Origin: Hyphomonas sp. CY54-11-8
GTDB taxonomy: Bacteria > Pseudomonadota > Alphaproteobacteria > Caulobacterales > Hyphomonadaceae
Reading direction: 5' to 3'
DNA length: 64,000 nucleotides
Assembly (NCBI RefSeq): GCF_000682735.1
Contig: NZ_AWFD01000008.1
Location: 1-64,000, forward strand
Shown here piece after piece: positions 1 to 61,490 of the stretch (position 1 is its first letter; every line of letters begins with the position of its first letter). The notes beneath the pieces were generated by a model that saw only the letters and a list, made by a program, of their open reading frames with translations, had not been told where the DNA came from and did not search any database. Both the position numbers and the translations under genes were made by a program.

Positions 1-1110
1 CTCGACGAACTGGCCGAGCAAGACGACTGGGTCCTCTCGCTGCCCGAGCCCGACGATATCCAGAACCTTCCCTGGCTGGAAACGCTTGGTGAAACCGGGA
101 CCCTGGTACTTCTCGAAAAGCTGGACCGTCTTGCAGAGGATACCGATGGCGAGGCCCGGTCAGACCTGCTGAGCGCAAAGCTGGTCGGGCTTCAGCGACA
201 CCTTTCCCTCGTCTTTCATAGGTTCATCGATGGCGACACGGCAGATCGCAGAAAGCTCAAGCTGCACGTAAACGGGATTGCCGTAGAGGCATTCGATCCG
301 TTTTGCAGAGGGCAGGCCGCAACGCAGGAATTGCCGGTCGAACGCATGTCCATAGGCGGGGAGACGATCGAGATCCGCCCCTACATCTTGCCGCACCATT
401 CCAAGCTCTCGCCGCAGACATGGCGGTACTACAAGGACAGGAGCGATTTTCTCTCGAACCAGGGAGCGTATGTCTACCGGAACGGGCGGCTGATGGCATG
501 GGGTGACTGGTTCCGGATGATCCCGAAAGGTGAAGCCACGAAACTGGCGCGCGTCCGCATCGACTTTCCCTCTACGCTTGACGCCCTTTGGACGATCGAC
601 ATCAAGAAGTCGCGCGCTCACCCACCCCCAGCCGTTCGCGCCAGATTCAAGAGGATCATCGAGAGAATTGCCGGCAGAAGTGTGCGGGTCCATCGGGGAA
701 GGGGAGAGCGGATGCTCCAGGCGGATGCTTCCCCTGTCTGGATACGCACCGTAGGACGTGATGGCATCATTTCCTATGCGCCCGATTTCGATCATCCCCT
801 GCTGCAAGCAGCGATCGCAGGTGCGGATTCGGAGAACGAGGGCGCGGTCCGCGCTGCATTGTCCGCTCTTGGGGCCGCTCTGCCGGTCGACGCGCTCTAT
901 GCGGACTTCGCCGACGATCCGAAGCGGGTGTCCCTGGCGCCGGACAGTACCGACAAGCAGCGTGAAGTCATTGCCGAGCTGAAATCGGTGCTCGATCCGG
1001 ACCGCGAAATGGAGCCGCGGGAATTCGCCCGACTTGTCCTGTCGACTGGACTCGCAGGCCGAAATATCGAAGTGATCGAGGCCGTCGCCCTTGAGTTGTA
1101 TGCGGCCTGA
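1..1110 (+). CDS. MORC/MutL-like GHKL ATPase, C-terminal part (cut by window start)
   Basis: The frame is open from the first base to the TGA at 1110, so only the C-terminal 369 residues are visible and the start lies outside. The GHKL ATP-binding motifs are not in view. The visible part has the S5-fold-like transducer region of prokaryotic MORC-type ATPases that travel with Z1 helicases; recognisable segments are NQGAYVYRNGRLMAWG and the nearby WFRMIPKGE and IDIKKS. In this family the GHKL domain is thought to act as an ATP-driven clamp on DNA. The Z1 helicase gene starts 14 bases after the stop, so the two are probably co-transcribed. An internal ATG at 331 could serve as a start, but the open frame and homology extend upstream of it. 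The family call rests mainly on the C-terminal region and the neighbours. Confidence 0.75.
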   Translation, partial: LDELAEQDDWVLSLPEPDDIQNLPWLETLGETGTLVLLEKLDRLAEDTDGEARSDLLSAKLVGLQRHLSLVFHRFIDGDTADRRKLKLHVNGIAVEAFDPFCRGQAATQELPVERMSIGGETIEIRPYILPHHSKLSPQTWRYYKDRSDFLSNQGAYVYRNGRLMAWGDWFRMIPKGEATKLARVRIDFPSTLDALWTIDIKKSRAHPPPAVRARFKRIIERIAGRSVRVHRGRGERMLQADASPVWIRTVGRDGIISYAPDFDHPLLQAAIAGADSENEGAVRAALSALGAALPVDALYADFADDPKRVSLAPDSTDKQREVIAELKSVLDPDREMEPREFARLVLSTGLAGRNIEVIEAVALELYAA

Positions 1111-1124
1111 GCAGGAGTTGGATC

Positions 1125-3917
1125 ATGTTCGATGACGGGGAAGCGCAACAGGTGCTTCGAGCACTTGTCGGGAAGTTCGGAAAAAGCGGGACAGAACAGC
1201 CTGCGGTAGCGGAACTCGAGGCAACAGCGCGAAGACTTGCTGAGGCCTTTGAATTCGACGTCGATATCGAGTCCATCGTCCTCCAGGCCCGGGAGCAGAT
1301 ATCGCACCGCATGGGCGAAGGGGTATCTCTCCTCGGACCCGATGCCGCGCATGACCCCAAGTGGTTGTCGCATCGGTCGATCGAATGGAAATATTCCGAT
1401 TCCTATCTGGAATTTCTCCGGCAGGACGGATGGTCTCCGAGAATTGCAGATACTCTTGGGGGCGTGACCCGACGCCTTGTCGGTTACCTTCAGGATCCGG
1501 ATGTCGAAGGCAGCTGGGACCGAAGAGGACTTGTCATCGGTCATGTGCAGTCCGGCAAGACGGCAAACTATTTGGGACTGGTCGCTCGTGCCGCCGACGC
1601 GGGTTACAAGTTCATCGTGGTGGTTGCCGGGATTCACAACAATCTACGGCGTCAGACGCAGGAGCGCGTGGACGAGGGGTTTGTCGGAGAGGTCAGTGAC
1701 CCCGCACGAAAGGAAAAGCTCAAGGCACAGACTGGCACCTCGAAGATCGGCGTGGGCCTGGTCGATCCCGACCACCGGCGCCCGGTTTCGCTGACGTCTA
1801 CCGCCGATGACTTCAAGAAGGCTGTTGCCACTTCGCTGCGCAGCGGGCTCGAGGACTGGAGCAAGCCTGTCATCGTCGTGATCAAGAAGAACCGTTCGAC
1901 GCTCAAGGCCCTGAACGACTGGCTCGTGGACTTCAATCGGGACCCGGGACAGAAGCAGATTGCCAATATTCCAATGCTGTTCATCGATGACGAGGCTGAC
2001 AATGCGTCGATCAATACAAACAAGCCCGAGCTGAAGCCGACAACAACCAACAGGCTCATTCGCAATCTGCTCGGTCTGTTCCGGAAGAGCTGCTATGTCG
2101 GTTATACGGCAACGCCTTTTGCGAACATCTTCATCAACCCCGAAGCCTATGATGAGGAGTCCCGCAAGGATCTGTTTCCGGAGCACTTCATTCACTGTCT
2201 CGATGCGCCGGACAACTATTTCGGAGCAGAGCGCCTGTTCCTCGATGACAATTCGAAGGCCCGCCACATCAAGGCCATTTCGGATTGTGAAGACATCATT
2301 CCTCTCAAGCACGCAAAGACGCACGAATTTTCCGAACTGCCCAAGTCTCTGAAGGAGGCAATTCGATCTTTCCTGCTGGTCCGTGCCATACGAACGGCAC
2401 GTGGCCAGCAGAAGAAACACTGCTCGATGCTGATAAATGTCTCGCGCTTCGTGGATGTCCAGCGAGAAGTCGATCGGCAAGTCACGGAATATCTGGAGGA
2501 GCTGCGCAACGCGATTCTGGCCTGCGCGGGCATGCCCGAGGAGATCGCTGACAGGAACCCTCATCTGGCAGCGATCAGATCGACTTTCGAAACGCTGAAG
2601 TTCAACGAGGCCCGAATCGACTGGAAGGAGGTTCTGACCTTCCTGCCCGATGCCAGCCGCTCGGTCGTGACGGCGGTCGTCAACAGCAAGTCACCTGATG
2701 GCTTGAACTACGCGGAATTCTCCGATCGTGGCGAGGCGCTCAACGTGATTGCCATCGGCGGCCTCAGCCTTTCTCGAGGTCTTACAATCGAGGGGCTGAC
2801 GATCAGCTACATGTACCGAAACACGAAGATGTACGACACGCTGCTGCAGATGGGGAGGTGGTTCGGCTATCGCCCAGGCTACGAGGATCTTTGCCGCGTC
2901 TGGCTGGCACCAGATTCTATCGGTTGGTACACGCACATTTCGGAAGCTTCCGAGGAATTGCGTGATCGCATCAAGGAAATGAACAGGGTGAATGCAACTC
3001 CCCGCACATTCGGGCTGATGGTGGAATCCCATCCGGACAGTCTGACAGTTACCGCCATGAACAAGATGCGCGCCGCCGAAACACGAACCGTCAGCGTCAG
3101 TTATGATGGAAAGCTCGTCGAGACATATGTTCTGTCTAGGGCAGAGAAGCCACACGAGGAAAACAGGGCGCTGTTCGAAAGGCTTCACTCCCTCCTTGTC
3201 GACGAGCATGCCGACCAGCTGGTCAGGGGAGGTGAGCGACCGGCATCTCGGGTCTGGCGCGGAGTTCCGGCAGACGTGGTCAATGATTTCCTCGCCGATT
3301 TCCGCGTGCATGCCCACAGTGCCGAGAGGCTGATGAGCGCCCGGAAGTATCTTTCTCTCATCAAGGAACGATTTCCAGTATGGGACATCGCCTTTGTTTC
3401 CTTGGCCAACGCGGGAGGCAAGAGCGATTCCACCCGCTTTGGCGAATTCCACATGGTCCACCAGTCACGCAGTGCGGGAACGAGCGAGGACAAGCTCAAG
3501 GAAATCGAAGGCGGCCTCTTCGTCACCAACAATCAGCGCGTCGCCGGCACAGGAGACGAAAGCGCCGGCCTTAACTCGGAGGAGATGGATGCCGCAATGA
3601 AGGTCGCCGCCTCCCGTGATCGAGAAAAATGGACCGACAGGGATACCCGTCATGTCAGTGTCAGGGGTGCGCCGCTGCTTATGCTTCATCTGATCGACCT
3701 CGAGAACCCGCTGGTGGAGTCTGATGAAAACAAGTTGCTCAAGGGCGCTCCTGCCATTGGTCTGAGCTTTCCCGCGACCGGAGACTTCTCCACGGTCGAG
3801 TACGTCCTGAACCAGGTGATGATCAAGCAGCTGGAAAGCGAACAATTCGATGCTGCCGACGAGGAGGACGATTACGATCGGGATGATGCAGCGATCGACT
3901 CGGGGGAGGCGGCATGA
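1125..3917 (+). CDS. Z1-domain superfamily II helicase/endonuclease-type ATPase
   Basis: A 930-residue protein with clear helicase motifs: Walker A GHVQSGKT at residues 139-146, Walker B FIDDEAD at about 286-292, motif III GYTATPFAN near 326, a motif V-like LSRGLTIEGL, and the Z1 signature QMGRWFGYR at about 575-583. Z1 proteins are predicted DNA translocases found in MORC-type restriction loci. The long C-terminal region after residue 620 has no motif I recognise; the last 25 residues are strongly acidic. The start ATG at 1125 follows a GGAG (1115-1118) and lies 14 bases after the ATPase gene. Its stop overlaps the next start in an ATGA, which suggests translational coupling. It probably supplies ATP-driven DNA tracking to the nuclease encoded next. 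Confidence 0.93.
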   Translation: MFDDGEAQQVLRALVGKFGKSGTEQPAVAELEATARRLAEAFEFDVDIESIVLQAREQISHRMGEGVSLLGPDAAHDPKWLSHRSIEWKYSDSYLEFLRQDGWSPRIADTLGGVTRRLVGYLQDPDVEGSWDRRGLVIGHVQSGKTANYLGLVARAADAGYKFIVVVAGIHNNLRRQTQERVDEGFVGEVSDPARKEKLKAQTGTSKIGVGLVDPDHRRPVSLTSTADDFKKAVATSLRSGLEDWSKPVIVVIKKNRSTLKALNDWLVDFNRDPGQKQIANIPMLFIDDEADNASINTNKPELKPTTTNRLIRNLLGLFRKSCYVGYTATPFANIFINPEAYDEESRKDLFPEHFIHCLDAPDNYFGAERLFLDDNSKARHIKAISDCEDIIPLKHAKTHEFSELPKSLKEAIRSFLLVRAIRTARGQQKKHCSMLINVSRFVDVQREVDRQVTEYLEELRNAILACAGMPEEIADRNPHLAAIRSTFETLKFNEARIDWKEVLTFLPDASRSVVTAVVNSKSPDGLNYAEFSDRGEALNVIAIGGLSLSRGLTIEGLTISYMYRNTKMYDTLLQMGRWFGYRPGYEDLCRVWLAPDSIGWYTHISEASEELRDRIKEMNRVNATPRTFGLMVESHPDSLTVTAMNKMRAAETRTVSVSYDGKLVETYVLSRAEKPHEENRALFERLHSLLVDEHADQLVRGGERPASRVWRGVPADVVNDFLADFRVHAHSAERLMSARKYLSLIKERFPVWDIAFVSLANAGGKSDSTRFGEFHMVHQSRSAGTSEDKLKEIEGGLFVTNNQRVAGTGDESAGLNSEEMDAAMKVAASRDREKWTDRDTRHVSVRGAPLLMLHLIDLENPLVESDENKLLKGAPAIGLSFPATGDFSTVEYVLNQVMIKQLESEQFDAADEEDDYDRDDAAIDSGEAA

Positions 3918-4876
3918 AGGGTCACTGGGACCAGCTTCATCCGCCAGCTGCCGGTTATACATGGAAGCTGAGGCGTTCCGATTCGCCGATCCGCACATTG
4001 TTCGGTCGACACGCGGATGGGCACGTGGCGTTTATGCTGGAAATGGAGCGCGACTATCCCGACCTGCTGAGACGACTGCCTGAAATCCAGGGATTGACCC
4101 TCGATCATCAGATGTTTTCTGAAAGCCGTTCGTACGGATTGCTCGTGGCGCTTCGCGAGGCAAATGACGAGGAACTGTTTGCAAGTCTTTGCGACGATCT
4201 CGCAGACTGTATCGAAGACCTGACAGATGAACGGCAGGCCGTGCTGTCCTTTCTTGGAAGACTGGAGCGCTGGCAGCGCTTCCTTGCACGAGACGGGCGC
4301 CGACTTCTGTCGACGGACAGTATTCGAGGACTGGTCGCAGAGCTCGAGATCGTTCGATACCTCGTTGCCGATCGAAAGCGTTCGGCGACGGAGGTGGTGA
4401 AGGGTTGGGAAGGACCATTGAGGGCTCCCCAGGATTTTCGTCTCCCGAACCAGATGATCGAGGTGAAATCATGGGGTGGTGCAGAAGGCGCGAAAGTCAG
4501 GATCTCGTCCGAAGTCCAGCTGCAGGTGGTCGATCGGCCCATCTATCTCGCTGCGGTTCATCTGGTCGAGGACAATGAATCACCAAGAGGCCAGTCACTG
4601 AACGACATTGTGAAGGCTACCAGATCGATCCTCCCATCGGAGGTCATCAATCTCTTCGAGAACCGGCTGGACGCAGCCCGCTATATCGAACTGCCGTACT
4701 ACGACGCGCCGAGATTCCGGATAGATGCGACCGATTTCTTCGAGGTCGCAGAAGACTTTCCAGCGCTCGTGCCGGATCGGCTGCCTCCAGCGACAACGGA
4801 CGTCCAGTACACACTGGATCTCGCACAGCTTTCAGCATTCAGAATCTCGGAAATACCGGAACCAGCCGATGAGTGA
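3914..4876 (+). CDS. PD-(D/E)XK motif protein (DUF4420-like), candidate nuclease subunit
   Basis: A 320-residue protein that resembles the PD-(D/E)XK motif proteins (DUF4420) encoded beside Z1 helicases. The likely nuclease core runs from about residue 130 (ELEIVRYLV) to the EVKSWGG segment near 183-189, where E and K fit the (D/E)XK catalytic pair; an upstream PQDF at about 174-177 could supply the acidic residue of the PD half. If active, this would be the DNA-cleaving subunit of the locus. Its ATG overlaps the Z1 stop by four bases and its own stop overlaps the start of the AIPR gene by eight bases, so all three are translationally coupled. No signal peptide or membrane segment is seen. 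Family membership is fairly secure; cleavage activity is inferred. Confidence 0.85.
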   Translation: MKGHWDQLHPPAAGYTWKLRRSDSPIRTLFGRHADGHVAFMLEMERDYPDLLRRLPEIQGLTLDHQMFSESRSYGLLVALREANDEELFASLCDDLADCIEDLTDERQAVLSFLGRLERWQRFLARDGRRLLSTDSIRGLVAELEIVRYLVADRKRSATEVVKGWEGPLRAPQDFRLPNQMIEVKSWGGAEGAKVRISSEVQLQVVDRPIYLAAVHLVEDNESPRGQSLNDIVKATRSILPSEVINLFENRLDAARYIELPYYDAPRFRIDATDFFEVAEDFPALVPDRLPPATTDVQYTLDLAQLSAFRISEIPEPADE

Positions 4877-6701
4877 AGTAAAGGTAGAAGACACGTTCGA
4901 GGAATTTCGTCAGGAAGTCCTGGCCTCTGCCGCGGCGAACAAGGACTTCGAGAAGATCGAGTTCCTGAACGCGTTCGGCCGTGAACTCGAGGAATGCGAC
5001 GAGATCGAGGAGCTCCAGACCTGCATCTCCCCGAATATACGCGGTGTTCAGGTCGACGGGTTCGGCTTCAATTCCGATGAAGGCCTCGATCTCTTCATCG
5101 CGGACTTCAATCAACGCTCTGCTCTCGAGACACTTACACGGACCGAAGTGACGACGTTCGTGAAACGCCTGACATCCTTCTTTTCGCGATCCCTTTCGGG
5201 TGAGCTGCATCGCTCCCTGGAAGAGACTTCGGAAGTCTATGCGGTATCAAGAGCCATCCACGAGCGAGGCGGCAAGTTCGGGCGGGTTCGCTTGTACGTC
5301 CTTTCGGAAAGGCAATTGAGCGATCGTTTTGAATCGATCGATTTGTCGCTGAACGAGGATGCAACGCCCGTCGCGCTTCATATCTGGGACATGAGTCGCC
5401 TGCATCGGCTCCGGACTTCCCGGAATCAGAAGGAAGCCATCGAGATCGACTTCGGGACTTTTGCAACGGGGCCAATCCCATGCCTGTCGGCGCACCTTGA
5501 GAGCGATGTCTACAAATCCTATCTTCTGGCGCTTCCGGGCTCCGTCCTGGCAGACCTCTATGCGCGCTACGGCGCGAGACTGCTCGAACAGAATGTTCGT
5601 GCCTTTCTTCAGGCGACCAACAAGGCCAATCGCGGAATTCGGGATACGATCCTGGAAGATCCGGGCATGTTCTTCGCCTACAATAACGGCATTACCGCAA
5701 CGGCCTCTGCGGTAGATGTCGAAGCCGACGGCGACACGACAAGAGTGCGCGCCATACGTGACCTGCAGATAGTGAACGGTGGTCAGACAACCGCATCCCT
5801 GTTTCATGCGCGCAGGAAGGACAAGGCCGATCTGTCCAAGGTCTTTGTCCAGATGAAGCTGACGGTGATCGACGAAAGCAGATTCGAGGAGGTCGTGCCC
5901 AGGATTTCGCAATATGCGAACACGCAGAACACGGTCAATGCCGCGGACTTCTTTGCAAACCACCCGTTCCACATTCGGATGGAGTCCTTTTCGAGAAGAC
6001 TCTGGGCTCCCGCACCACCCGGGCAGCAGACCGAGACCAGATGGTACTACGAGCGAGTTCGAGGGCAGTATGCAGAAGAACAGACACGGCTCGACGCGCG
6101 CGGCAAGCGGGTGTTCCTTCAGCAGAATCCCAAGAGCCAGCTTCTTCGAAAGACGGATCTGGCGAAGTACGACAATATCTGGGACGATGACCCTGTGCGC
6201 GTAAACCTCGGGGCCCAGAAGAACTTCGCCCGCTACGCTGTTCGTATCGGCGAGGAATGGAAGAAGGACGCCGATCGGTTCGACGAGCAGTACTTCAAGC
6301 AGGCCGTTGCAAGGGCAATCATCTTCAAGTCCAGCGAGCGTATCGTGTCGGCGCAAACCTGGTACGAAGGCGGTTATCGCGCCAACATCGTCAACTATGC
6401 CAATGCGCTGCTCTCCCACGCCCTCGGCGCAGAAGATCTGCAGCTCGATGTGGAAGCCCTCTGGCAGGCACAGCGCATTCCGGATTCGCTCTCGTTCGTC
6501 ATAGCGAGCCTTGCGGAAGTCGTGAACGAAGAGCTCACAAGTTCAAGTCGCGGTTTGTCCAATGTAAGCGAGTGGGCAAAGAAGACAGATTGCTGGACAG
6601 CTATCCTGAAGCATCTTCCGCATGCGCGATCGATTGTCCGGAAATCCTGCAGCGATTGGGCCGTGCCGCCAGCGTCACGCCGCCTTGCTTCGGGAACCTG
6701 A
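4869..6701 (+). CDS. AIPR family protein (abortive infection phage resistance)
   Basis: A 610-residue protein with the AIPR family hallmarks FFAYNNGITA (NNGI at about 272-275) and IVNGGQTTASL (VNGGQT at about 302-307). The frame is open upstream to 4725, but the start at 4869 (MSEVKVEDTF) overlaps the previous stop and fits the operon. AIPR proteins are associated with phage resistance and with Z1/MORC restriction loci; their biochemical role is not settled, with nuclease or DNA-binding functions proposed. The 3' end overlaps the convergent methyltransferase gene by 27 bases, so the last nine codons of each gene are antisense to the other. It is the last gene of the four-gene operon. Confidence 0.9.
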   Translation: MSEVKVEDTFEEFRQEVLASAAANKDFEKIEFLNAFGRELEECDEIEELQTCISPNIRGVQVDGFGFNSDEGLDLFIADFNQRSALETLTRTEVTTFVKRLTSFFSRSLSGELHRSLEETSEVYAVSRAIHERGGKFGRVRLYVLSERQLSDRFESIDLSLNEDATPVALHIWDMSRLHRLRTSRNQKEAIEIDFGTFATGPIPCLSAHLESDVYKSYLLALPGSVLADLYARYGARLLEQNVRAFLQATNKANRGIRDTILEDPGMFFAYNNGITATASAVDVEADGDTTRVRAIRDLQIVNGGQTTASLFHARRKDKADLSKVFVQMKLTVIDESRFEEVVPRISQYANTQNTVNAADFFANHPFHIRMESFSRRLWAPAPPGQQTETRWYYERVRGQYAEEQTRLDARGKRVFLQQNPKSQLLRKTDLAKYDNIWDDDPVRVNLGAQKNFARYAVRIGEEWKKDADRFDEQYFKQAVARAIIFKSSERIVSAQTWYEGGYRANIVNYANALLSHALGAEDLQLDVEALWQAQRIPDSLSFVIASLAEVVNEELTSSSRGLSNVSEWAKKTDCWTAILKHLPHARSIVRKSCSDWAVPPASRRLASGT

Positions 6702-8264
6702 AGACACCCGCTCGGTCAGGTTTTCTTCTCTCGAGTCGGCTCCTTGCAGAAGGTTCCAGACCACGTCGGCAATGTTCCGGGCCAGGAAAGGGGGGACTGC
6801 ATTGCCGACCTGTACGTATTGCTGCGTTCGATTCCCGAGGAACACGTAATTGTCCGGAAAGGTCTGAAGTCGCGCGGCTTCCCTCACAGTCAGACTTCTG
6901 CACTGAAGGGGGTCCGGGTGTATGAAATAGTGCCCATCCTTGGAGATGTGGCTCGTGACTGTGGTCGAGGGACGCGACCAGAGCTGGACGCGAAACCGGT
7001 CGGAAAAGTTTCCGGACGTCCAGTTTCCGTGATTGGGCGAAAGAGACTTCGGGAATTCGTGTGCCTTGGGCGAGCGCATGTGAACGAGCGCAAAGACCGA
7101 GGCGAAGAGATATCTGCTGAGGTCGGAGCGAATATGTGTTCTGGCCTCATGATTGTGGGTGCGCTTCAAACGAGGGTCCAGTATCCAGTTTGCGAGTGCT
7201 TCCGGACACCGCTTCGACACGCCGGGGACGCCTTGTTCGGTTCGATCAAGCTCCGCGTTCCTGGCCCTGAACGCCTCCAGACGGTCCACAGCCTTGTCGT
7301 GCAACTTCGGATCGGTCTTGTCCGTCTCCCGAATTATCACCTGGTAGGCGGCCTCGACCGCCCCGCGCCAGTTCTCGAGACTGTCCGGTTCCTTGCTGAG
7401 GCCCGATCTCAGATGCGGAAGCCCCTTCAGGACATTCTGGGAGCTTGCTGGCGGGTAATGCCTGAGACCGATACCGGAGTCGGCTTTCCACAGATCCTTC
7501 CTGATACCGATAATGATGACGCGGTGTCTCGCCTGCGGGAGGCCCCAGTCCTCGGCTCTAACGAGGAAATCCCTCATGGCAAGATCATCGGACTGGTCGA
7601 ACAGCCGGTCCCCGGCATTCAGAGCTACCAGGCGATAGCCTGTTCCTCTCGATCCGGCATTCCGAAGGTCCTCGAGAATCTGAGAGGCGATCACCTGTCC
7701 ATTGACACTGGACGAGACAATGCCCTTGACGTTCTCCATGACGAACAAGGCCGGATTCACGCGTTCGAGGATCCGGATGTACTCTCGATACAGGAAATGG
7801 CGTTGGTCCTTCTCGGGCTTGTATTCCTTGTTTCCCCCATTTCGGGAGCGTCCGGCCAGCGAATAGGCCTGGCAGGGTGGTCCGCCAATCACGATGCAGC
7901 GGTCGTTGGCTTCTGCAACAATTGTATCGAGCCGCTCGTCGATGATGCGATCAGCGGCCTTCTTTCCGAGTTCGAGGCACTGCGCTTCCTCTCGCGCCTT
8001 TTTCCACTCGGCTGGATACAGGGTCGCCCAGTCGGGCTGCTCGCTATTGCCGTTAAGCCAGTCATAGTATTCATCCGGAAAGGCGTCGGAAAATTGCCGA
8101 AGAAAGGCTCTCAGCAATAGCGTCTTGTGGGCTGCCTCATCCTTCTCGACCGAAAGCGAAATCCTGAATCTCCGAGAGCCATCCTCGGCGCGAGATGCGC
8201 AGAACCCTTCAGCAAGGCCGCCTGGCCCTGCAAACAGATCGATGACGTGATATGATTCGGACAA
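6675..8264 (-). CDS. DNA (cytosine-5-)-methyltransferase
   Basis: A C5-cytosine methyltransferase of 529 residues from the chosen start. The motifs are in order: motif I DLFAGPGG at 9-16, the catalytic PCQ loop GGPPCQAYS at 127-135 (Cys131), ENVKG at 177-181, QARHRVIIIG near 244, motif IX REAARLQTFP, and motif X QVGNAVPP. I place the start at a TTG (8264), because it is preceded by GGAGG nine bases upstream and puts motif I at the usual distance from the N-terminus; an ATG at 8396 would add 44 unlikely residues and overlap vsr. It should protect host DNA against the facing operon. The target sequence cannot be read from the protein. It is divergent from vsr across 67 bases and convergent with the AIPR gene. 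Confidence 0.95.
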   Translation of the reverse strand: MSESYHVIDLFAGPGGLAEGFCASRAEDGSRRFRISLSVEKDEAAHKTLLLRAFLRQFSDAFPDEYYDWLNGNSEQPDWATLYPAEWKKAREEAQCLELGKKAADRIIDERLDTIVAEANDRCIVIGGPPCQAYSLAGRSRNGGNKEYKPEKDQRHFLYREYIRILERVNPALFVMENVKGIVSSSVNGQVIASQILEDLRNAGSRGTGYRLVALNAGDRLFDQSDDLAMRDFLVRAEDWGLPQARHRVIIIGIRKDLWKADSGIGLRHYPPASSQNVLKGLPHLRSGLSKEPDSLENWRGAVEAAYQVIIRETDKTDPKLHDKAVDRLEAFRARNAELDRTEQGVPGVSKRCPEALANWILDPRLKRTHNHEARTHIRSDLSRYLFASVFALVHMRSPKAHEFPKSLSPNHGNWTSGNFSDRFRVQLWSRPSTTVTSHISKDGHYFIHPDPLQCRSLTVREAARLQTFPDNYVFLGNRTQQYVQVGNAVPPFLARNIADVVWNLLQGADSREENLTERVSSGSRSKAA

Positions 8265-8331
8265 GTCTCGAGGCCTCCGGCGTTTTGCCGAGTCTATACA
8301 ATTTGGCGTCTCTCGCCAGGATGGAAATTCG
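8265..8331. promoter_or_regulatory. 67-bp divergent promoter region between methyltransferase and vsr
   Basis: This gap separates the divergent methyltransferase and vsr starts and must hold both promoters. It contains GGAGG serving the methyltransferase and an AGGA about ten bases before the vsr GTG. An AT-rich segment, AGTCTATACAATTT (8291-8304), is the only plausible -10 region. Both transcripts probably initiate within or very near it, so the two genes may be expressed together. Confidence 0.5.
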
Positions 8332-8757
8332 GTGGTTGATGTAGTTTCTTCGAAAGTCCGGTCCCGAATGATGGCCGGAATCGGGGGGAAGGACACAAAG
8401 CCGGAACTGGCCCTTCGGAAGGGGCTCTTTGCCCTCGGCTTGCGCTATCGACTTCACGACCGGAAATTGCCTGGTCGACCCGATATCGTGCTTCCCAGGT
8501 GGAACGCGGTTGTCTTTGTGCATGGTTGCTTCTGGCATCGCCATCCAGGCTGCAGGTTTGCCACCACGCCGTCGACACGAACCGAATTCTGGCTCGACAA
8601 GTTCGAGAAGAATGTCGCGCGCGATCAGCGAAACATCGTTGCGCTGCAGACGCTGGGCTGGAGGGTCCTTGTCGTCTGGGAGTGCGACATCAAGGCTGAT
8701 CCGGGCGGCACTTTAAAGCGTGTTGAGCGATGGATCCGCCGTGGGGCCTCCAGGTGA
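8332..8757 (+). CDS. vsr: Very short patch repair endonuclease Vsr
   Basis: A 141-residue Vsr protein, the family's normal length. It shows the expected N-terminus VRSRMMAGIGGKDTKPE, the core GRPDIVLPRWNAVVFVHGCFWH (Asp catalytic residue in GRPDI, zinc/His region at HGCFWHRH), and the C-terminal LVVWECDI. Vsr nicks at T:G mismatches that arise when 5-methylcytosine deaminates, which protects the methylation target sites of a companion C5 methyltransferase. Pairing with the divergent methyltransferase is therefore functionally coherent. The GTG at 8332 is chosen because family members begin just there; the next in-frame ATG (8368) would remove conserved residues. Confidence 0.95.
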   Translation: MVDVVSSKVRSRMMAGIGGKDTKPELALRKGLFALGLRYRLHDRKLPGRPDIVLPRWNAVVFVHGCFWHRHPGCRFATTPSTRTEFWLDKFEKNVARDQRNIVALQTLGWRVLVVWECDIKADPGGTLKRVERWIRRGASR

Positions 8758-8770
8758 TCGTCTCCTTGTG

Positions 8771-8800
8771 CGAACGCCCCTCTGACGAGGGGTCTGTTCG
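8771..8800 (+). terminator. Hairpin downstream of vsr
   Basis: An inner perfect stem CCCCTC-TGAC-GAGGGG (8777-8792) is enclosed by CGAAC (8771-8775) and GTTCG (8796-8800). It begins 13 bases after the vsr stop. There is no strong T-run, so it may terminate transcription only partly. Confidence 0.45.
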
Positions 8801-9038
8801 GAGGCGATGAGCAAATCGTCTCGATGTTCCGATAATCGTGGGCCGCCTCCTGCCCGGCTCGTCTCCGGTCACGCCGCGTTGCGGCGCGCTGCGGGGGCTC
8901 GCCGGCGTGTCGCCGCGCCTGCGCTTCCTCGCTGCGGGGCAGAGGGGGTCGTAGGCGCGGTCGGATAGTCGGTTGCGTCGTGTCACGGGCATTGGAGTGC
9001 TTTCCCGGAAAGCCGGTCGGGGGCGGACGGCGCGTGTG
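8801..9038. other. Gene-free G+C-rich stretch with short hairpins
   Basis: No coding frame with a believable start or family resemblance is seen. The segment is very G+C rich and has a small perfect hairpin CGCCGC-GTT-GCGGCG (8872-8886). It joins the restriction locus to the conjugation-type cargo and may contain a module junction. Confidence 0.4.
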
Positions 9039-9139
9039 CCGGCGCGCGGCCTGGCTGCAAGGCGGCGGGCTTTAGGGGGCGTCGGGGTGGCTGGGGCCTC
9101 TTACCTGATCCCCTTGCAGCCAGTCCTTGTGCGCGCCGG
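9039..9139. repeat. 101-bp two-step inverted repeat upstream of ardA
   Basis: Outer arms CCGGCGCGC (9039-9047) and GCGCGCCGG (9131-9139) enclose inner perfect 12-bp arms CTGGCTGCAAGG (9051-9062) and CCTTGCAGCCAG (9112-9123), with a 49-base loop. As single-stranded DNA this would fold into one large hairpin. Its position 68 bases before ardA resembles the folded single-strand promoters known upstream of leading-region antirestriction genes on conjugative plasmids; that role is inference here. Confidence 0.6.
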
Positions 9140-10892: not shown

Positions 10893-12068
10893 ATGACAGA
10901 TCAGGCTAAGAACAATCGTCTCGGCGAATATGTCATCAGTTCGGTCGGCGAGGAACGGTATCGCGCCTATATTCCCGCGCCTTTGCCGCCTGATCCGCCT
11001 CTCGACATGACGCGCCTATACCCCTTGCTTGATCAGGCGAGTACCGCGCTCGGCCGGCTTGACGGCATGAGCATGATTCTGCCGGATCCTTCGCTCTTCC
11101 TTTATATGTATGTCCGCAAGGAAGCCGTCCTGTCATCTCAGATTGAGGGGACCCAATCTTCACTTTCGGACCTCCTGCTCTTCGAAGTGGATGAGGCCCC
11201 GGGCGCGCCGCTCGACGATGTAACAGAAGTTTCCTGCTATGTTGCTGCGCTCACCTATGGGCTCACACGCCTGAACGATCTGCCGCTCTCGCTCCGGCTT
11301 CTACGGGAAATCCACGCGCACCTCATGAACAATGCGCGCGGCGGTAACAAGAATCCTGGTGAGTTCAGGACCTCCCAGAACTGGCTCGGCGGCACCCGCC
11401 CCGGCAATGCCGTTTTCGTGCCGCCGCCGCCAGACAAACTCGCAGACTGCCTCGGCCGCTTTGAGACTTTCCTTCACGACGAAACCGTCCGGCTTCCCGT
11501 CCTCGTCAAGGCGGCGCTTGCTCATCTGCAGTTCGAGACAATCCACCCTTTCCTTGACGGCAACGGGCGGCTCGGTCGCTTGCTCATCACACTGATACTT
11601 TGCGCCGAGGGTATTCTGCGCGATCCGCTGCTCTATCTCAGTCTCTATCTAAAGACCCATCGCGCTCGGTACTATGAATTGCTGCAATCGGTTCGCGAAA
11701 CCGGGAATTGGGAGGACTGGATTGAGTTCTTCCTGCAGGGCGTCATTGAGACGTCCCGGCAAGCAACCGATGCAGCGCAAGCGATCGTCAAACTCTTCAA
11801 GGATGACCGCGTCACGATCGAAAAAAGTGGCCGGTCGACGGCTTCGGCTTTGTCTATCCACGCGCTTCTACAAAATCGACCAATCGCGACATCGACGCGC
11901 GTGACAGAAGCGACGGGCATGTCCCTTCCGACCGCGCTCAGGAATCTTGCGTTGCTGGAGGAACTGGGCATTGTCCGGGAAATCACCGGCAAGGATCGTA
12001 ACAAGATTTTCGTCTACGGGAAGTTTCTGGATATCCTGAGTCAGGGAACTGAACCTCTGCAGCGGTAG
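10893..12068 (+). CDS. Class II Fic family protein (AMPylation-type) with C-terminal winged helix
   Basis: A 391-residue protein with the canonical Fic motif HPFLDGNGRLGR at residues 218-229, complete with catalytic His and the phosphate-binding GNGR. An N-terminal inhibitory motif SSQIEG at 81-86 matches (S/T)xxxE(G/N), so it is self-inhibited (class II). The N-terminal region before the Fic core fits the Fic N-terminal helical domain, and the last ~80 residues look like a winged helix (VTEATGMSLPTALRNLALLE). Fic enzymes transfer AMP or related groups to target proteins. No separate antitoxin gene is adjacent, as expected for class II. The ribosome binding site is weak. It is a common cargo gene of integrative elements. 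Confidence 0.93.
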   Translation: MTDQAKNNRLGEYVISSVGEERYRAYIPAPLPPDPPLDMTRLYPLLDQASTALGRLDGMSMILPDPSLFLYMYVRKEAVLSSQIEGTQSSLSDLLLFEVDEAPGAPLDDVTEVSCYVAALTYGLTRLNDLPLSLRLLREIHAHLMNNARGGNKNPGEFRTSQNWLGGTRPGNAVFVPPPPDKLADCLGRFETFLHDETVRLPVLVKAALAHLQFETIHPFLDGNGRLGRLLITLILCAEGILRDPLLYLSLYLKTHRARYYELLQSVRETGNWEDWIEFFLQGVIETSRQATDAAQAIVKLFKDDRVTIEKSGRSTASALSIHALLQNRPIATSTRVTEATGMSLPTALRNLALLEELGIVREITGKDRNKIFVYGKFLDILSQGTEPLQR

Positions 12069-12277: not shown

Positions 12278-13369
12278 TCAGCGTTCGTGTTCATTTTCAC
12301 GCTCGCCCGGTCTCTGACGCAGGCTGATCCGCACGCCTTGCATGTTGGATGAAGTTCGTGACGCGTGCGCGATGGCGCTGATCATTTGCTGCACCGAGGG
12401 CAAGGGGCGGGCTGGCGATCGTGTGCGTGCTTCTCCACCAGGTATCGGACCGAGGCGGGCTGGAGCGCCAACCTGCGCTTGCTGCTGGTGTGCTCTGGCG
12501 AGATCGAAGCCGAGCGTTCTGGCTTCCGCCTGCCAAGCCTGGAACAGTGCCGTCCGTTCCCTTGGCCGTTTGGCCTGCCGTGTGCGCAGGGCTGCCAGTT
12601 CCATCCCCTTGGCCGTACGGTAGCCATAGGTGTCGGCCGCGCTTTCGATCGCCTGCCTGCGCTTCGAAAAGGCGCGTTCGATGTCGCGGGGGATCGCGGC
12701 AAGGCGGAAGCTCGTGCCATGGCGCTCCACGGCATGGCCATCGCGCTCGAGTCCATTGGCGAGGTGTGCGCGGTAGATGGCGCCGGCTTCCTTCTGGGCT
12801 TTGTAGAGATTGCGGCTGACGAGACTGCCCCAGCTTCCGTCACGTCGGGGCGCCAGATTGAAGATGAAGGCGTGGGTGTGAAGCTGAGGGTCGAGATCAC
12901 GGCTCGTGTGGTGGTGGAAACGAGCAATCGTCAGGCCGGCGACGGGCTCGCGGATCGCGCCGCCCTTGCCGCGCCTTGTGAATGCGTGAAGGTCTTCGAG
13001 ATGGGTGGTGGCGGCATGAACAGCTTGACGGTGAGCAGCTTCGATCCTGGCGCGTTCAGTAGGGGATGAAAGCGCCCACATGACCGACACCGATTTTGGG
13101 GCCGAGAATGTCATGTCCCAGCCGGGAGCGTGCGACTTTCCAATCTGGGTGAGGCGTGTGCCGGTTTTCGGATCGTGCCCATTCAGAGCAGCTTCGAAAT
13201 CCGCCTTGGAGACGGGGCCTTCAAGCGCGAGCCGTTCAGCGCCTCTGCCGTCCCATTCGCCATCTGCTTCGGCCTCGCCCTGGCCAGTATAGTATTCGTC
13301 CTGAGCCATATGCTTGAAATAGCTGACAGCGGCTGCAACGGACTTCCGGGCGGAGATCGATGCGACCAT
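12278..13369 (-). CDS. MobF/TrwC-type relaxase, truncated before the helicase
   Basis: The 363 residues are an apparently intact MobF relaxase domain. Candidate catalytic tyrosines are at Y17 and Y26/Y27 (SYFKHMAQDEYYT), FSAPKSVSVMWAL is at about 88-100, and the metal-binding histidines sit in FHHHTSRDLDPQLHTHAF (about 151-168). MobF relaxases nick oriT and lead the strand during conjugation; they normally continue into a helicase of several hundred residues. Here the protein stops soon after the relaxase domain, and its last ~25 residues look unlike the family, so the gene is probably truncated by a deletion. Nicking might survive, but unwinding would not. The start overlaps the coupling-protein stop by one base. 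Confidence 0.88.
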   Translation of the reverse strand: MVASISARKSVAAAVSYFKHMAQDEYYTGQGEAEADGEWDGRGAERLALEGPVSKADFEAALNGHDPKTGTRLTQIGKSHAPGWDMTFSAPKSVSVMWALSSPTERARIEAAHRQAVHAATTHLEDLHAFTRRGKGGAIREPVAGLTIARFHHHTSRDLDPQLHTHAFIFNLAPRRDGSWGSLVSRNLYKAQKEAGAIYRAHLANGLERDGHAVERHGTSFRLAAIPRDIERAFSKRRQAIESAADTYGYRTAKGMELAALRTRQAKRPRERTALFQAWQAEARTLGFDLARAHQQQAQVGAPARLGPIPGGEARTRSPARPLPSVQQMISAIAHASRTSSNMQGVRISLRQRPGERENEHER

Positions 13370-15174
13370 CAGGTGTCGTGTTCCCGGGAGAATGTATTCC
13401 GGATGCGCTGGGCGACTTCCGGCGACAGGATCGAAGTCAGGAAGCTGTTTGGTGCGTCAGGCAGCGGCGCAAGCTCCCGCGCAGGTCTTGTCGTCCAGTC
13501 GGCGAGCACACTGGCGGGGCGCAATTCGCTGAGCTGCGGATAGGGGAGGGTGATCTCGTAGGCGTGTTCGCCGGGTCCGATGAGGAGCGCGCGAACACCT
13601 TGCTTGAATGCGCCAAGCCTGTCCGACAGTTCGGACGGTGTGATGACAGGCCGAACTTCCCGCTCCTTTGTCCAGCTTGTTGAAATTTGGCCGCCTGACC
13701 GTGTTTCGCTCTTGCGGTAGAACTCGACGGTCTGCTGGCCGATCAACCGGCTCGTCGTTTCGGCGCTCTGCCCTAAGTTCATGCGGGTGATGATGTGCGT
13801 GCCGATCATGCCGATCCAGGCATCGGCCTGGTCATGCCCGTACGTGTTGCGGATCTGGGAAAGGTCCTGTGCACCGAGCACGACGCTGATGCCCTTGGAC
13901 CGGCCAACATCCAGCAGGGTCGAGAAATGGGGCAGGCGTTCGAGCTGAGGAAACTCGTCGAGGAAGAGCCAGGTACGCCGTGCCGGGTTTTCCTTCATGG
14001 CTGGTGAAGCCGCGTGGGAGGCGAGAAGGCCGATGATGCCGGATAGCCAGGCCTTGGTCAGCTGTGGAAAGCGTCCGTCATGCTGCAGCACGATTGGATG
14101 ACAGGACGGATGGCGCAGCCAGTCGCGGACAGAGAAGGATCGCCCGCGCGAACTGTTTGGCCAGGCTTCGGCGAGGACGCTCACCACGTTCATATGAGCC
14201 TTGAAGGTCGAGATGATGCTTTGCGTCGTCTTGCTGCTTGGCTCTTTCAGGAACTGGATCGCTTCGGGGTGGTAGCTTTCGGCAATACCGAGAAGCGCAT
14301 CCGCATCCGCGACCACCAGCTTCCGGAGGTCTGTCCAACCCCAGCCACGGCCATGTCTGACCTGGAGCGAGATAACGCAGGCAGTCAGGATCTCGCGCGC
14401 TGCGTCTGACCAGATACGGTCGGACCGGCTTTCAGGGATGAGCCGCGCCGCGAGCTCACGCGCTTCCTGAGGCGTCTGGCAGTCGGTCGCAATGTCCCAT
14501 TGCAGGGAGCGAGCGTCATGAGGCGCAATGATATTGCCGATCCTGGGCAACTTCGAGGTCATGTCGCCTTTGACATCGAGCACCAGCACCTTGTCACCTC
14601 GCTCAATGGCCTGAAGCATGAGGTGCAGCATGGCGGTGGTCTTACCTGCGCCGGTACTGCCCCAGATCAGGAAGTGACGGCTTTCACGGTCGCGGCTGAT
14701 GGGAATGCCGGGCGGAAACTCAAGCCCGGATCCAGACCGGCGACACTCGCGTTTTGACAGCGATTGGAGCGCTCGTCGCGCGGTCCTGCCTGCAAGGTGC
14801 TTCCGCCCACGAATGACTTTGGGGGGTGGGCGGGCGGTCATCGTCTGACGGATGAAGCCGATCAGGGCGAGGAGTGATAGTCCCGTCAAAACCGCGACGG
14901 CATTGTGCCGGAGCATGAATTGCCAGGTCGTTCCATAGTGGTCGAGGATGCGTCGGCATCTCGGCCAGTCGGCAGATCCGATAGGGTCGCCAATGAGTGA
15001 GGTGATCCGGGCTTTGCCGCATCTCGCCATGAACGCGCTGTCGTGGCGAGCGTAGACGCCCTCATCGGTATAGGTGCCAGGTGGGTAGAATTCGAAGCCG
15101 AGCTTGTAGGCTCCGATAGCAGTTGCGCCGAACAGGACTGCGAAGGTGAAGAGGACGGGCTTGAGGTGTCTCAT
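13369..15174 (-). CDS. TraD/TrwB-type type IV coupling protein
   Basis: A 601-residue coupling ATPase. There are two N-terminal membrane segments (about 7-24 and 88-108), Walker A GSTGAGKT at 172-179 and Walker B TWLFLDEFPQLE near 401-412. Coupling proteins link the relaxosome to a type IV secretion channel and pump DNA. The start at 15174 (MRHLKPVLFTF) gives a proper first membrane helix, whereas upstream codons to 15288 overlap the neighbouring gene. It is the third gene of a four-gene mobilisation operon and touches the relaxase gene. No secretion-channel genes are in view, so mobilisation would rely on a channel encoded elsewhere. Confidence 0.92.
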   Translation of the reverse strand: MRHLKPVLFTFAVLFGATAIGAYKLGFEFYPPGTYTDEGVYARHDSAFMARCGKARITSLIGDPIGSADWPRCRRILDHYGTTWQFMLRHNAVAVLTGLSLLALIGFIRQTMTARPPPKVIRGRKHLAGRTARRALQSLSKRECRRSGSGLEFPPGIPISRDRESRHFLIWGSTGAGKTTAMLHLMLQAIERGDKVLVLDVKGDMTSKLPRIGNIIAPHDARSLQWDIATDCQTPQEARELAARLIPESRSDRIWSDAAREILTACVISLQVRHGRGWGWTDLRKLVVADADALLGIAESYHPEAIQFLKEPSSKTTQSIISTFKAHMNVVSVLAEAWPNSSRGRSFSVRDWLRHPSCHPIVLQHDGRFPQLTKAWLSGIIGLLASHAASPAMKENPARRTWLFLDEFPQLERLPHFSTLLDVGRSKGISVVLGAQDLSQIRNTYGHDQADAWIGMIGTHIITRMNLGQSAETTSRLIGQQTVEFYRKSETRSGGQISTSWTKEREVRPVITPSELSDRLGAFKQGVRALLIGPGEHAYEITLPYPQLSELRPASVLADWTTRPARELAPLPDAPNSFLTSILSPEVAQRIRNTFSREHDT

Positions 15175-15184
15175 GGTACGATCC

Positions 15185-15496
15185 TCAACCGGCAGTCCGG
15201 CCGCTGAGAGCAAGGAGCAACTGCTCGAACATGGATTCAATGCGTCCAAGCGCGCTGGACTGCTTGTCGATTGTGGTCGAAGCTGCATTGAGGTCCTGGG
15301 ACAGAGCTGCGAGCCTTCGCTCGATCTTCAAGAGGCGTTCGGCCTGCGTGTACGGATCACCGTCTGTCAGGCCCGACAGGATAAGCTCTCGTGCGACGCC
15401 CGTCGGGGTTCCGGACATGCGGCGAGCCCGTACGGTCAGTTGTTCGATATCCGACTCGGCGAGGCGGATCGAAAGGGGCCTGGTTTTACCAGTCAT
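15185..15496 (-). CDS. Ribbon-helix-helix-like mobilisation accessory protein
   Basis: A 103-residue protein. The first 55 residues (RPLSIRLAESDIEQLTVRA and the following helix) look like a ribbon-helix-helix DNA-binding fold, and the rest is a heptad-rich, probably coiled-coil tail. Small proteins of this type next to a coupling protein and relaxase act as relaxosome accessory factors that bind oriT. The ATG at 15496 overlaps the upstream HTH gene's stop in an ATGA; the frame is open further upstream, but that part is antisense-like. The role is inferred from fold and place. Confidence 0.7.
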   Translation of the reverse strand: MTGKTRPLSIRLAESDIEQLTVRARRMSGTPTGVARELILSGLTDGDPYTQAERLLKIERRLAALSQDLNAASTTIDKQSSALGRIESMFEQLLLALSGRTAG

Positions 15497-31138: not shown

Positions 31139-34100
31139 TTACCAGACCATGTTCACACCGAACATCAGCTGCTGAGCGTCATAGTTCGGCGAGTTGTACT
31201 GGCCCCTGTATTCCAGTTCGAGGCCAATCCGGTCGTTCACCTTGCGACGGGCGCTGAACCCGTAATTGTAGGTGTCGAGACCGCGGTCGGTGGATTGCGT
31301 TTGCCAGACGGCGTCACCCAGCCAGACCTTCCGCTCTACGGTCGGATCGTTGCCGAGGTCACGGGTCCAGTCGGCGAACACGGCCAGGTCTGTCCCGGCA
31401 AATTTGCGGGTGACTTCCGCGCCGAGTTTTGACTGAAGCGTATCGCGGCCTTCACCTTCCAGGGTCAGACGCGTCTCGAGGGCTGTGCCTTCCTCAGCGT
31501 ACTTGTGAACGTTGAGGGTCGCCGCGCGCAGGCCGCCGATGGCATAGACGCTGGTCTCTCCGAAGGTGACTGTTTTGTAGCGGGCTTCAAGCTGGGCATG
31601 CGTCATCGAGACCGGCTTGTCCGATTTCGAATAGGTGACGGCATTCGGGAACACCGTTGTACGGTTGGTTTTCACCGCGGCCTGCGTGTGGCCGACAAGA
31701 CCGGACAGGGTCAAGCGCGTTGTCACCGCACGGCTGCCATAGAGGTAGGCAGACATCATCTGGCTGGTCGCACCGTTCGCCGTATCATTATAGATCTCGG
31801 CGGTCTTGTAGCTGCCGGCAACGCCGAGGCGCAGGTCATGACGGTTGATGAAGGTCGCGCCGATGGTGATGCCGTACACGTCTTCATCAAAACCCATACC
31901 AGCTGCATCCGGATCATAGCTGGCGCCACGCGCTTCGGCACGCGACCAGAGATGAATGCCGTTCTTCAGTTCGGTATCGACGCCGCCGATACCGGTATCG
32001 CCTTTAGCGGCAGACAGGATCATGCTGTCGGATCCACCGATGACGGATTCCATGCTTTCCAGAACATGGGCATGGATATCACCCGACAGGGACGCCAGGG
32101 CCGAATTGACCTGCGAGGCCGTCATGCCGTTGAAGTCCGAGAACAGGCTGGTGAGGACACCGTCGGTCGATTGACCATATGCCGTAGCCAGATCGAGCTC
32201 CGTCGCTGCAGCAACAGCGTTCGACCGCAGGCCACCTTCCTGGGCCAGAATACCGAGACTTTGTGCCACGAGTGCAAGCTGGATGGAGTTCTGATTGTAG
32301 ATCAGGTTGAACCGGGTATTTTCCGGAATGCCCGCAGTCGGCTGGTCGATCATGTCGAACGCGCCAGCTATATTGTCGGCCACGACAACCGTGAACACGT
32401 CACCGATTACAGCATCGAAATCATTGTTTGCGTCACCCGAAATGCCCCGAAGGACCGGATTGATCGTACCGTTGGCCGTGAAGGTCACGCCCTCACCTGT
32501 CAGAACGAGCCGGTCGTACGATCCCGCCCCGCCAGCCGCGGAATAGGTGCGGCCGTCGATTTCTGTGTAGAAGAGCGACCCGTCATTGAGCGTGACATCG
32601 CCGGACACGAAGAGGGTGCCAGGTGAATTGCCGGGCTTCAGCATGCCGCCGGGCAGGACCACAACACTGCCGTCCACACCGCCCGTGCCGAGCAGGGAAG
32701 CGCCATCGACAACGGTCAGCAGGTTCGTGCCGAACATGCCGTTGACGTCCAGTGCACCGCCTTCGATATAGCTGTTGCCGCCAAGCCGGGAAATACCGGC
32801 AATCCGAAGGACGCCATCACCGAACTTGCGCAGGCCGCCAGATCCGTCGAGGGCGCCATCGAACGTTCCATCAGTAGACTGATTGAACTCGATCATGCCA
32901 TTGTTCAGGATCTGGCCCTGAAGCGAGTTCGTTGAGCCGACGAGGGTGCCTTCCATGATGTTGGTACCGCCCGTGTAGGAATTGGCACCGTTCAGGATGA
33001 GACGGCCGGCACCTGCGAAGTTCAGCGCGCCGGTTCCGGAAATTTCACCTCCCCAGGTCAGCGCGCCCTGATATACGTCCACCGTGGAGTTGGTGTCGGC
33101 CAGAATCATCTGACGCGTCGAGCTCATGTCATTCCCGGTGACGAAGGCAGCATTTCCGATGGTCAGGGCACCTGTTCCCAGAGCGCCGTCACCGGTCACG
33201 AGCAATGAGCCGCCCTTGATGTGGGTGCCGCCTGTATATGTGTTGGTGCCCGATAGGAGGAGCCGACCAGACCCCAGCACGTTGAGTGTGCCATCGCCCG
33301 AAATTCCGCCTTGCCATTCAACGTCATGGTCCTGAACGTCTAAGCGGGAGTTGGAATGCTCCACGATCATCTGACGCGCAGACATCATGCTTGCACCCGA
33401 CTGGAAGGTGGCATTTCCGATTGTCAGCGGACCGCCACCAAGGTTTTGGTCGTGCGATGCCCGCAGGGTGCCTTCCTCGATGGTGAAGCCGCCCTGATTG
33501 GTGTTCGTTCCGGACAGGATCAGCGTGCCGTTGCCGGTTTTCCTCATGTTGCCGACACCTGTGAAACCGCCGGTGACCGAAACCATGTTGCCTTCGGTGT
33601 CCATGGTGCCGCCCTGGGACTGGACGGTGAAGTCCGCACCAACGAACGTATCCATGTTGAACTGCAGCGTTCCGCCGACGAAATTCGGGTTCACCTGCGA
33701 TGCGCCAAGCTGCGCAGCGGTGTAATAGGTGCTGCCGGTGTCAATGTCCGGGATGGCAGGGGGCTGGGCAGAAGGATTTTCCAGTCCGCTGCCGTCCACG
33801 ACGGAAGAACCGGCCGGCACGCTGTTAAGCGCCACCGAAGAAAATGTCAGGTATCCGCCAACGCCGAAATACTCGCCATTGCCGGTCGCAATTACCGTGA
33901 CCTTGTTGAAGAAGTTGGTGTCGTTGATCGCACCGATAAAATGTTCCGTACCGCCGATGCTGTTCGAGATGCCGCCGAGGAGGAGTGGGCTTGAGGTGCC
34001 GAAACGTAGGTAGACCTCTGAGGCGTTCGCCGTGCCGCCATCGGGCGTCGGGTTGCTGGACGTACAGCAGGTGCCCCAGTCATTCACCATCGTACCGAGC

Positions 34101-61468: not shown

Positions 61469-61490
61469 GTCTTTTCCGTTATCTGACGGA

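Follow-up and report, generated by a model that had tools for sequence, protein, structure and literature searches.

The window analysed here comprises the first 64,000 nucleotides of contig NZ_AWFD01000008.1 of Hyphomonas sp. CY54-11-8. Its left end, which is also base 1 of the contig, carries the six genes listed in Table 1. An earlier note had read these genes from the bare sequence as a GHKL ATPase, a Z1 helicase, a PD-(D/E)XK protein, an AIPR protein, a C5 methyltransferase and Vsr, and open reading frames and family matches (Pfam, PADLOC and NCBIfam) agree on all six at the positions it gave. The orientation that it described was also found: mzaB, mzaC, mzaD and mzaE form an operon on the forward strand, faced by a convergent C5 methyltransferase gene from which vsr diverges. 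The overlap claimed for the operon genes holds for mzaC-mzaD (4 nt) and mzaD-mzaE (8 nt) but not for the first two genes, which are separated by a 14-nt gap. The 3′ ends of mzaE and the methyltransferase gene overlap by 27 nt and, provided the listed starts are correct, the starts of the methyltransferase gene and vsr overlap by 65 nt. A longer reading frame for mzaE begins at an alternative start at position 4725. The NCBIfam scores amount to 159 bits against an equivalog cut-off of 850 for MzaB (the cut gene), 556 against 1500 for MzaC, 128 against 420 for MzaD and 362 against 1050 for MzaE. Since all four lie far under their cut-offs, the genes constitute a divergent mzaBCDE-like set. A promoter and terminator scan of positions 6400-9100 returned nothing useful, and no DNA-level relatives of the locus were found in plasmids.

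Table 1. Genes, domains and motifs of the locus. Positions are those of the window.
Feature	Position	Strand	Evidence
mzaB-like GHKL/MORC-type ATPase, 3′ part, 369 aa	1..1110	+	NCBIfam MzaB NF041932, E 9e-47; PADLOC MzaB, 8e-37
mzaC-like Z1 protein, SF2 helicase/translocase, 930 aa	1125..3917	+	Pfam Z1, 1e-76; NCBIfam MzaC, 1e-166
MzaC Walker A, GHVQSGKT (residues 139-146)	1539..1562	+	V141-T146 invariant in 61 aligned sequences
MzaC motif II, DDEAD (residues 288-292)	1986..2000	+	D288-E290 and D292 invariant in 61 aligned sequences
MzaC DTLLQMGRWFG (residues 571-581)	2835..2867	+	No or almost no variation in 61 sequences
mzaD-like DUF4420 PD-(D/E)XK nuclease, 320 aa	3914..4876	+	Pfam DUF4420, 4e-57
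mzaE-like AIPR protein, 610 aa	4869..6701	+	Pfam AIPR, 7e-98; AIPR_N, 4e-32; NCBIfam MzaE, 4e-108
MzaE N-terminal domain (1-189), PD-(D/E)XK-like fold, Lys position not Lys	4869..5435	+	Predicted model
MzaE AIPR core (about 211-365), possibly ParB/Srx-like, N-G-x-Q-T-T motif	5499..5963	+	Predicted model
C5 cytosine methyltransferase, 573 aa	6675..8396	-	Pfam, 6e-45; best PADLOC match DrmMII, 1e-89
Vsr mismatch endonuclease, 141 aa	8332..8757	+	Pfam, 3e-28; NCBIfam vsr, 147 bits (cut-off 98)

Other features were seen elsewhere in the window. A TrwC relaxase and a TrwB-type coupling protein are encoded 3′ of the locus (12281-15288, reverse strand); this region is a conjugative or mobilisable element near defence genes. 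Between vsr and the relaxase lies a gene for a Fic/DOC protein with a Fic_N domain (10893-12065, forward strand). Farther along are an autotransporter of 1153 aa with PATR repeats (31142-34600, reverse strand) and a 674-aa frame matching PF10712 (NAD-GH; 61467-63488, forward strand). The latter sits next to a family-less 674-aa frame on the reverse strand and could be a shadow frame.

The truncated ATPase gene

The 369-aa MzaB fragment has no Pfam match at E 0.001 and aligns with positions 143-422 only of the MzaB profile, which places the GHKL motifs outside the window. The 5′ end of mzaB was not recoverable from the strain's own assembly. When the corresponding upstream DNA of a congener (L010:2300-3780, 1481 bases) was compared with that assembly, the sole match was to the first 50 bases of the contig studied here; the truncation thus looks like an assembly gap. 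In a second congener (G002) the complete gene specifies 521 aa and matches HATPase_c_3 with E 3e-34. The earlier note's description of the first gene as a GHKL ATPase is therefore to be divided: the domain itself lies off the window, but it is present in full-length relatives, G002 included.

These relatives reveal a peculiarity of the ATP site. Residue counts were made on sequences within a length limit, which among 90 loci admitted 83 of the 86 MzaB proteins present, 84 of 85 MzaD, 65 of 70 Vsr and 77 of 85 methyltransferases. The MzaB N-box reads D-x-x-D-N (D58, D61, N62) in all 82 sequences that cover it, with N62 kept in 82 of 82; residues D88, G90 and G92 of the DxGxG motif and G122, G124 and K126 of the GxGxK motif are kept in 83 of 83. 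The catalytic N-box residue of MutL and MORC is a glutamate. At that position an aspartate is found in 82 of 82 MzaB sequences (L011:10974-12536, reverse strand, and relatives). A PDB sequence search with MzaB gave weak matches to HSP90 and MORC.

The state of mzaB bears on whether the locus is still a working one. A modification cluster that has lost its defence function, and is decaying or silent, would fit the contig ending inside mzaB, as well as the situation in the first congener (G027; L010, 3282-3634), where the first 25 or so mzaB codons lie in a different frame from those of G002. That difference may reflect another start site, a frame break or a sequence error. Against this, none of the five other frames is interrupted in the window or in either congener; their proteins are 70-98% identical and have kept the motifs, and we consider decay improbable. 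The closest congener also has, on the upstream side of mzaB, a gene for a protein of 761 aa that has no Pfam match (L010, 2-2287, forward strand).

The Z1 motor and the MzaD nuclease

The MzaC motifs in Table 1 were scored in an alignment of the window protein with those of 60 of 73 loci, chosen for suitable length. The sequence DTLLQMGRWFG corresponds to the Z1 signature DThhQXuRhFG given in the accessible text of Iyer 2008 (PMC2292703), and its position would be that of SF2 motif VI. Although a PDB sequence search gave no match for MzaC, its predicted model (pLDDT 84) matched HsdR of EcoR124I with a Foldseek E of 1e-8 and LlaBIII with a VIA Z of 14.6 (369 aligned residues, rmsd 5.0). Mfd, RadD, FANCM and many RNA helicases come just behind. 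As these proteins score nearly alike, MzaC can be placed firmly in the SF2 motor class, but not next to any one relative; with that proviso, the MzaC model most closely resembles type I/ISP restriction translocases.

MzaD likewise had no match in a PDB sequence search. Its residues E143, D174, E183 and K185 are each conserved in 84 of 84 aligned sequences, and MzaD is probably the subunit that cuts.

MzaE and the case for abortive infection

No match was obtained for MzaE in a PDB sequence search, and Foldseek against the PDB produced none under E 0.001 (best E 0.65). The predicted model (pLDDT 89, pTM 0.64) nevertheless allowed two parts to be compared separately. The fold of residues 1-189 matched AF1548 (Z 9.3), FokI (8.0), MspJI (7.7) and HamA (7.2). 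Conservation was assessed on 59 sequences, those of the window and of 58 of 64 loci with MzaE of suitable length. Residue 80, at the position of the catalytic lysine, is phenylalanine in 35 of the 59 and tyrosine in 18, so that the nuclease-like N-terminal domain of the model is probably non-catalytic.

The AIPR core gave fold matches to ParB-N (Z 6.5 and 6.2), sulfiredoxin (4.8) and SspE (4.2), all below the tool's own trust level. Thirteen of its residues (E240, N242, R244, N272, N273, N303, G304, Q306, K330, N351, Q353, N354 and D360) are present in 59 of 59 sequences. Profile-profile comparison of AIPR with GmrSD_N/DUF262 and with DndB yielded a probability of 0.2% in each case, against 0.2-0.6% for four control alignments. 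In the first DndB alignment, two of six rows (L112 and L113) probably represented a neighbouring gene; a repeat on three sound rows (L112, L114 and L115), a weak comparison, gave 0.1%. The profile comparisons being negative, the likeness to ParB/Srx comes from the resemblance of fold and motif only. In its accessible text, PMC3506569 places the N-terminal domain of DndB in the AbiU1/AIPR family, which we counted in favour of this likeness. The predicted core is possibly of ParB/Srx-like fold.

AIPR proteins are classed as abortive-infection proteins in the accessible parts of PMC3506569 and PMC9523054, and because they are so called in print, effectors other than DNA cutting may be involved. 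A complex of the GHKL and Z1 proteins could sense infection and the AIPR protein kill or stall the cell, the methyltransferase doing no more than quieting the system on host DNA. The many invariant polar residues of the AIPR core, in which no nuclease site was identified, would suit such an effector. The toxin attributed to AIPR proteins in what is available of PMC3506569 is an N-terminal HEPN RNase. The model lends no support to a HEPN toxin for MzaE: it is alpha/beta, and the matches of residues 1-189, in a comparison that did not extend to HEPN itself, are PD-(D/E)XK nucleases. The predicted N-terminal domain is probably not a HEPN toxin. Both this PD-(D/E)XK-like model and the invariant site of DNA-nuclease type in MzaD argue against abortive infection, which we regard as unlikely.

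Conservation of the locus

Of 200 related genomes, 7 (the strain's own among them) have relatives of MzaC at E 1e-30; they come from 5 of 34 genera, and all seven loci have C5 methyltransferase and Vsr matches near MzaC. A wider scan of genome contigs with a ten-sequence MzaC alignment detected at least 578 relatives. The best 80 of these were kept and annotated with HMMs built from the seed loci; they are the closest relatives and not a random sample. Many of these best 80 of at least 578 lie on short contigs, and matches were recorded for MzaB in 76, MzaD in 75, MzaE in 76, the methyltransferase (Dcm) in 75 and Vsr in 62. Spacing is tight throughout the same 80: mzaB and mzaC overlap or are no more than 60 nt apart in 74 of 76 cases, as are mzaC and mzaD in 75 of 75 and mzaD and mzaE in 74 of 74. 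Two of these best 80 loci contain an MzaA-like match, a short one in each case.

Forty-six of the best 80 of at least 578 have full flanks, that is, at least 6.5 kb to the left and 8.5 kb to the right of mzaC. In this set, which is spread over many phyla, Dcm and MzaE are present in 46 of 46, MzaB in 45, MzaD in 44 and Vsr in 38. All of B, D, E, Dcm and Vsr occur together in 38 of the 46, so that the conservation with methyltransferase and vsr on which the earlier note had made its proposal depend is indeed observed elsewhere. The association of core, methyltransferase and Vsr is not due to chance. The order of Dcm and Vsr varies, and the arrangement seen in the window (Dcm downstream and convergent, Vsr divergent beside it) recurs in 9 of the 46.

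Some loci deserve separate mention. In the plasmid loci L024 and L025 a sigma factor gene precedes mzaB, an arrangement shared with MZA of the Gao type; both loci also carry Dcm and a restriction endonuclease, and L025 has Vsr as well. The copy on a Devosia plasmid (L030, 2343-14640) has its mzaB, mzaC, mzaE and dcm in pieces.

The methyltransferase and Vsr

Conserved residues of the methyltransferase and of Vsr are kept throughout the alignments: C175, E221, R290 and R292 of the methyltransferase in 77 of 77 sequences, and E25, D51 and H69 of Vsr in 65 of 65. The window Vsr matches that of E. coli (1cw0) with 131 bits and E 2e-37. The genome of the strain (3.9 Mb) contains three C5 methyltransferase matches and one Vsr match, the latter being the Vsr of this locus.

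To compare METHYLTRANSFERASE with the core, pairwise identities were collected over the 63 loci that have all six genes. Identities in B, C, D and E correlate with one another at 0.60-0.74 and with those of Dcm at 0.38-0.51. Those of Vsr correlate at 0.48 with Dcm and at 0.24-0.27 with the core genes, values made noisier by the shortness of Vsr. Among the full-flank loci, Vsr accompanies a methyltransferase of the window type in 29 of 31 cases and one of another type in 9 of 15 (Fisher p 0.01, relatedness uncorrected). From these comparisons we infer that Vsr belongs with the methyltransferase rather than with the core.

The same observations weigh on the idea that MzaB and Vsr form a repurposed machine for mismatch or very-short-patch repair, in which Vsr would nick and MzaC remove the strand. 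Iyer 2008 draws this parallel in its accessible text (PMC2292703), and gonococcal MutL is described as binding and stimulating Vsr (PMC6116569, available part); the frequent linkage of Vsr and its invariant residues E25, D51 and H69 are in keeping with it. A Vsr match is missing, on the other hand, from 8 of the 46 full-flank loci, all of which bear the methyltransferase and five of which have B, C, D and E. Moreover, Vsr tracks the methyltransferase more than the core, a nuclease is already supplied by MzaD, and an interaction between VsrA and MutL was not found in Caulobacter, according to the accessible portion of PMC12907096. Taken together, these points make a repair machine very improbable.

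The methyltransferase in its turn does not always keep pace with the core. In 64 of 295 locus pairs whose MzaC proteins are more than 50% identical, some of them with short flanks, Dcm identity is below 35%. Examples with good flanks are L024/L025 (MzaC 66%, Dcm 27%) and L052/L072 (MzaC 59%, Dcm 25%). L070 was discarded as a clean case of exchange, its left flank measuring only about 0.5 kb. Changes of methyltransferase were then counted on a FastTree phylogeny of the four core proteins. With 80 loci, short-flank ones included, and 12 Dcm clusters, 20 changes were counted; frequent exchange was rejected as an interpretation because the true partner may be missed in the short-flank loci. With the 45 full-flank loci and eight clusters, the number was nine, the least possible being seven; 200 shuffles of these loci averaged 13.7 and never fell below 12. 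Nine changes against a shuffled minimum of 12 suggest that methyltransferase and core have for the most part stayed together, with an occasional exchange of the methyltransferase. No segment of the core co-varied with the methyltransferase (best window 0.198; 95% level of the label-permutation null, 0.198), and region-wise conservation of 54 methyltransferases of the window type did not settle the target site. Judging from these neighbourhoods, the C5 methyltransferase is a constant partner that occasionally belongs to another subfamily, and Vsr accompanies it.

A model for the locus

We favour, as reasonably probable, the view that the predicted folds and conserved motifs describe a restriction or defence cassette of the mzaBCDE, C5 methyltransferase and Vsr kind, licensed by methylation and driven by a translocase. 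The C5 methyltransferase would mark host DNA. Inspection of DNA would fall to MzaB, a MORC/MutL-like protein acting as an ATP clamp, together with the AIPR core of MzaE. MzaC would translocate on double-stranded DNA in the manner of HsdR or type ISP enzymes, and MzaD, with its intact E-D-ExK site, would cut. The nuclease-like domain of MzaE may serve contacts with DNA or between subunits, and Vsr would repair the T:G mismatches arising from deaminated 5mC. Given the HsdR/ISP-like model of MzaC, the E-D-ExK site of MzaD and the presence of a C5 methyltransferase in every full-flank locus, an ATP-driven translocator that licenses the nuclease on unmethylated DNA, as the earlier note had supposed, is a reasonable inference.

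The methyltransferase sometimes switches subfamily while the core stays alike, which a restriction enzyme with a fixed site would not easily tolerate; nor was a specificity subunit recognised. One could imagine instead an all-purpose MzaBCDE core that can take its licence from different C5 methyltransferases. Such a core would read whether or not cytosines are methylated but would not itself hold the sequence specificity, and its AIPR part would be a nucleotide-using sensor of ParB/Srx fold, similar in kind to SspE. It would then make sense that a C5 methyltransferase occurs in 46 of 46 full-flank loci and yet belongs to another subfamily in some close relatives; we give the proposal little probability.

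Comparison with known systems

The locus belongs to a group that comparative genomics had already brought to light. A system of five genes, mzaABCDE, was reportedly tested for anti-phage activity by Gao et al. in 2020. It is called validated in the accessible text of Miller et al. 2022 (PMC9523054). Its B, C, D and E genes are homologous to those of the window and in the same order, but here all four fall far under the NCBIfam cut-offs and a C5 methyltransferase and Vsr are attached. No MzaA-like match was present in the congener loci L010 and L011; matches in the genomes lie elsewhere, and the nearest of them, in G002, is a frame of 296 aa at a distance of 7.6 kb from mzaC.

The same paper (PMC9523054) describes this gene set as a putative defence system, "type II", and compares it with mzaABCDE. 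In the parts available, type II and the locus share a Z1 protein of about 925 aa, a PD-(D/E)XK DUF protein, a cytosine methyltransferase, AIPR and an associated MORC, as well as low similarity to mzaBCDE and the rarity of mzaA. Type II is reported there to have a putative transcriptional regulator, whereas none was recognised among the six genes, the region upstream of mzaB lying off the contig. Miller et al. tie DNA repair endonucleases to type I, whereas here Vsr sits with a type II set. Two of our loci, L013 (in G084) and L014 (in G109), probably correspond to type I as presented in the available text: they share Z1, DUF4420, Dcm and Vsr with the window but differ in having two further proteins, no AIPR match and another GHKL-like protein, with a glutamate in the N-box by eye and no Pfam match. 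Their Dcm proteins are 54-55% identical to that of the window, no farther from it than the Dcm of the type II locus L012 (53%), even though their MzaC proteins are less similar to the window's (29-34%, against 41% for L012); their Vsr proteins are 59-61% identical. Positions 2514-6004 of L013 and 2745-6255 of L014 encode the GHKL-like protein, a further protein, which in L013 matches DUF6339, and one unknown protein; L013 also has weak PADLOC PDC-M33 matches.

The membership in the class of Iyer 2008 that the earlier note had proposed is corroborated by the accessible text of PMC2292703, with which the Z1 signature, the E-D-ExK site and the methylase and VSR neighbours all agree. That text describes neighbourhoods of GHKL, SFII helicase, E-D-ExK nuclease, DCM and VSR, with AIPR in a figure legend, and proposes that the DNA is looped between the site recognised and the site cleaved. 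The locus has in common with the MORC/paraMORC class the GHKL protein, the helicase with DThhQXuRhFG, the E-D-ExK nuclease, DCM, VSR and AIPR. C5 methyltransferase and Vsr genes are also mentioned near paraMORC-like genes in the available part of PMC8011034, and an island carrying Z1, DUF4420 and a Dcm-like methyltransferase in that of PMC5379612. A literature search by title and abstract, with most subscription journals outside its scope, turned up no paper recognisable as treating the mechanism of MZA or AIPR.

With the type I and ISP translocases (HsdR of EcoR124I, LlaBIII) the locus shares an SF2 motor fold, as predicted for MzaC. It differs from them in that Pfam recognised no HsdS-like family among the six genes and in that its methyltransferase is a C5 enzyme. 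To go by the accessible literature, the gene set itself is already named and described, as mzaBCDE, as the Iyer 2008 class and as Miller 2022 type II; the first and the last of these had escaped the earlier note. What is added here is the predicted fold of AIPR, the invariant aspartate of the GHKL site, the constant but not fixed methyltransferase and the likeness of the MzaC model to type I/ISP translocases. The class is widespread, and its parts can now be assigned testable roles, in which MzaD probably cuts, MzaC would move and the AIPR N-terminal domain is probably not a HEPN toxin. A constant C5 methyltransferase partner of varying subfamily raises the question of where sequence specificity lies in such a system.
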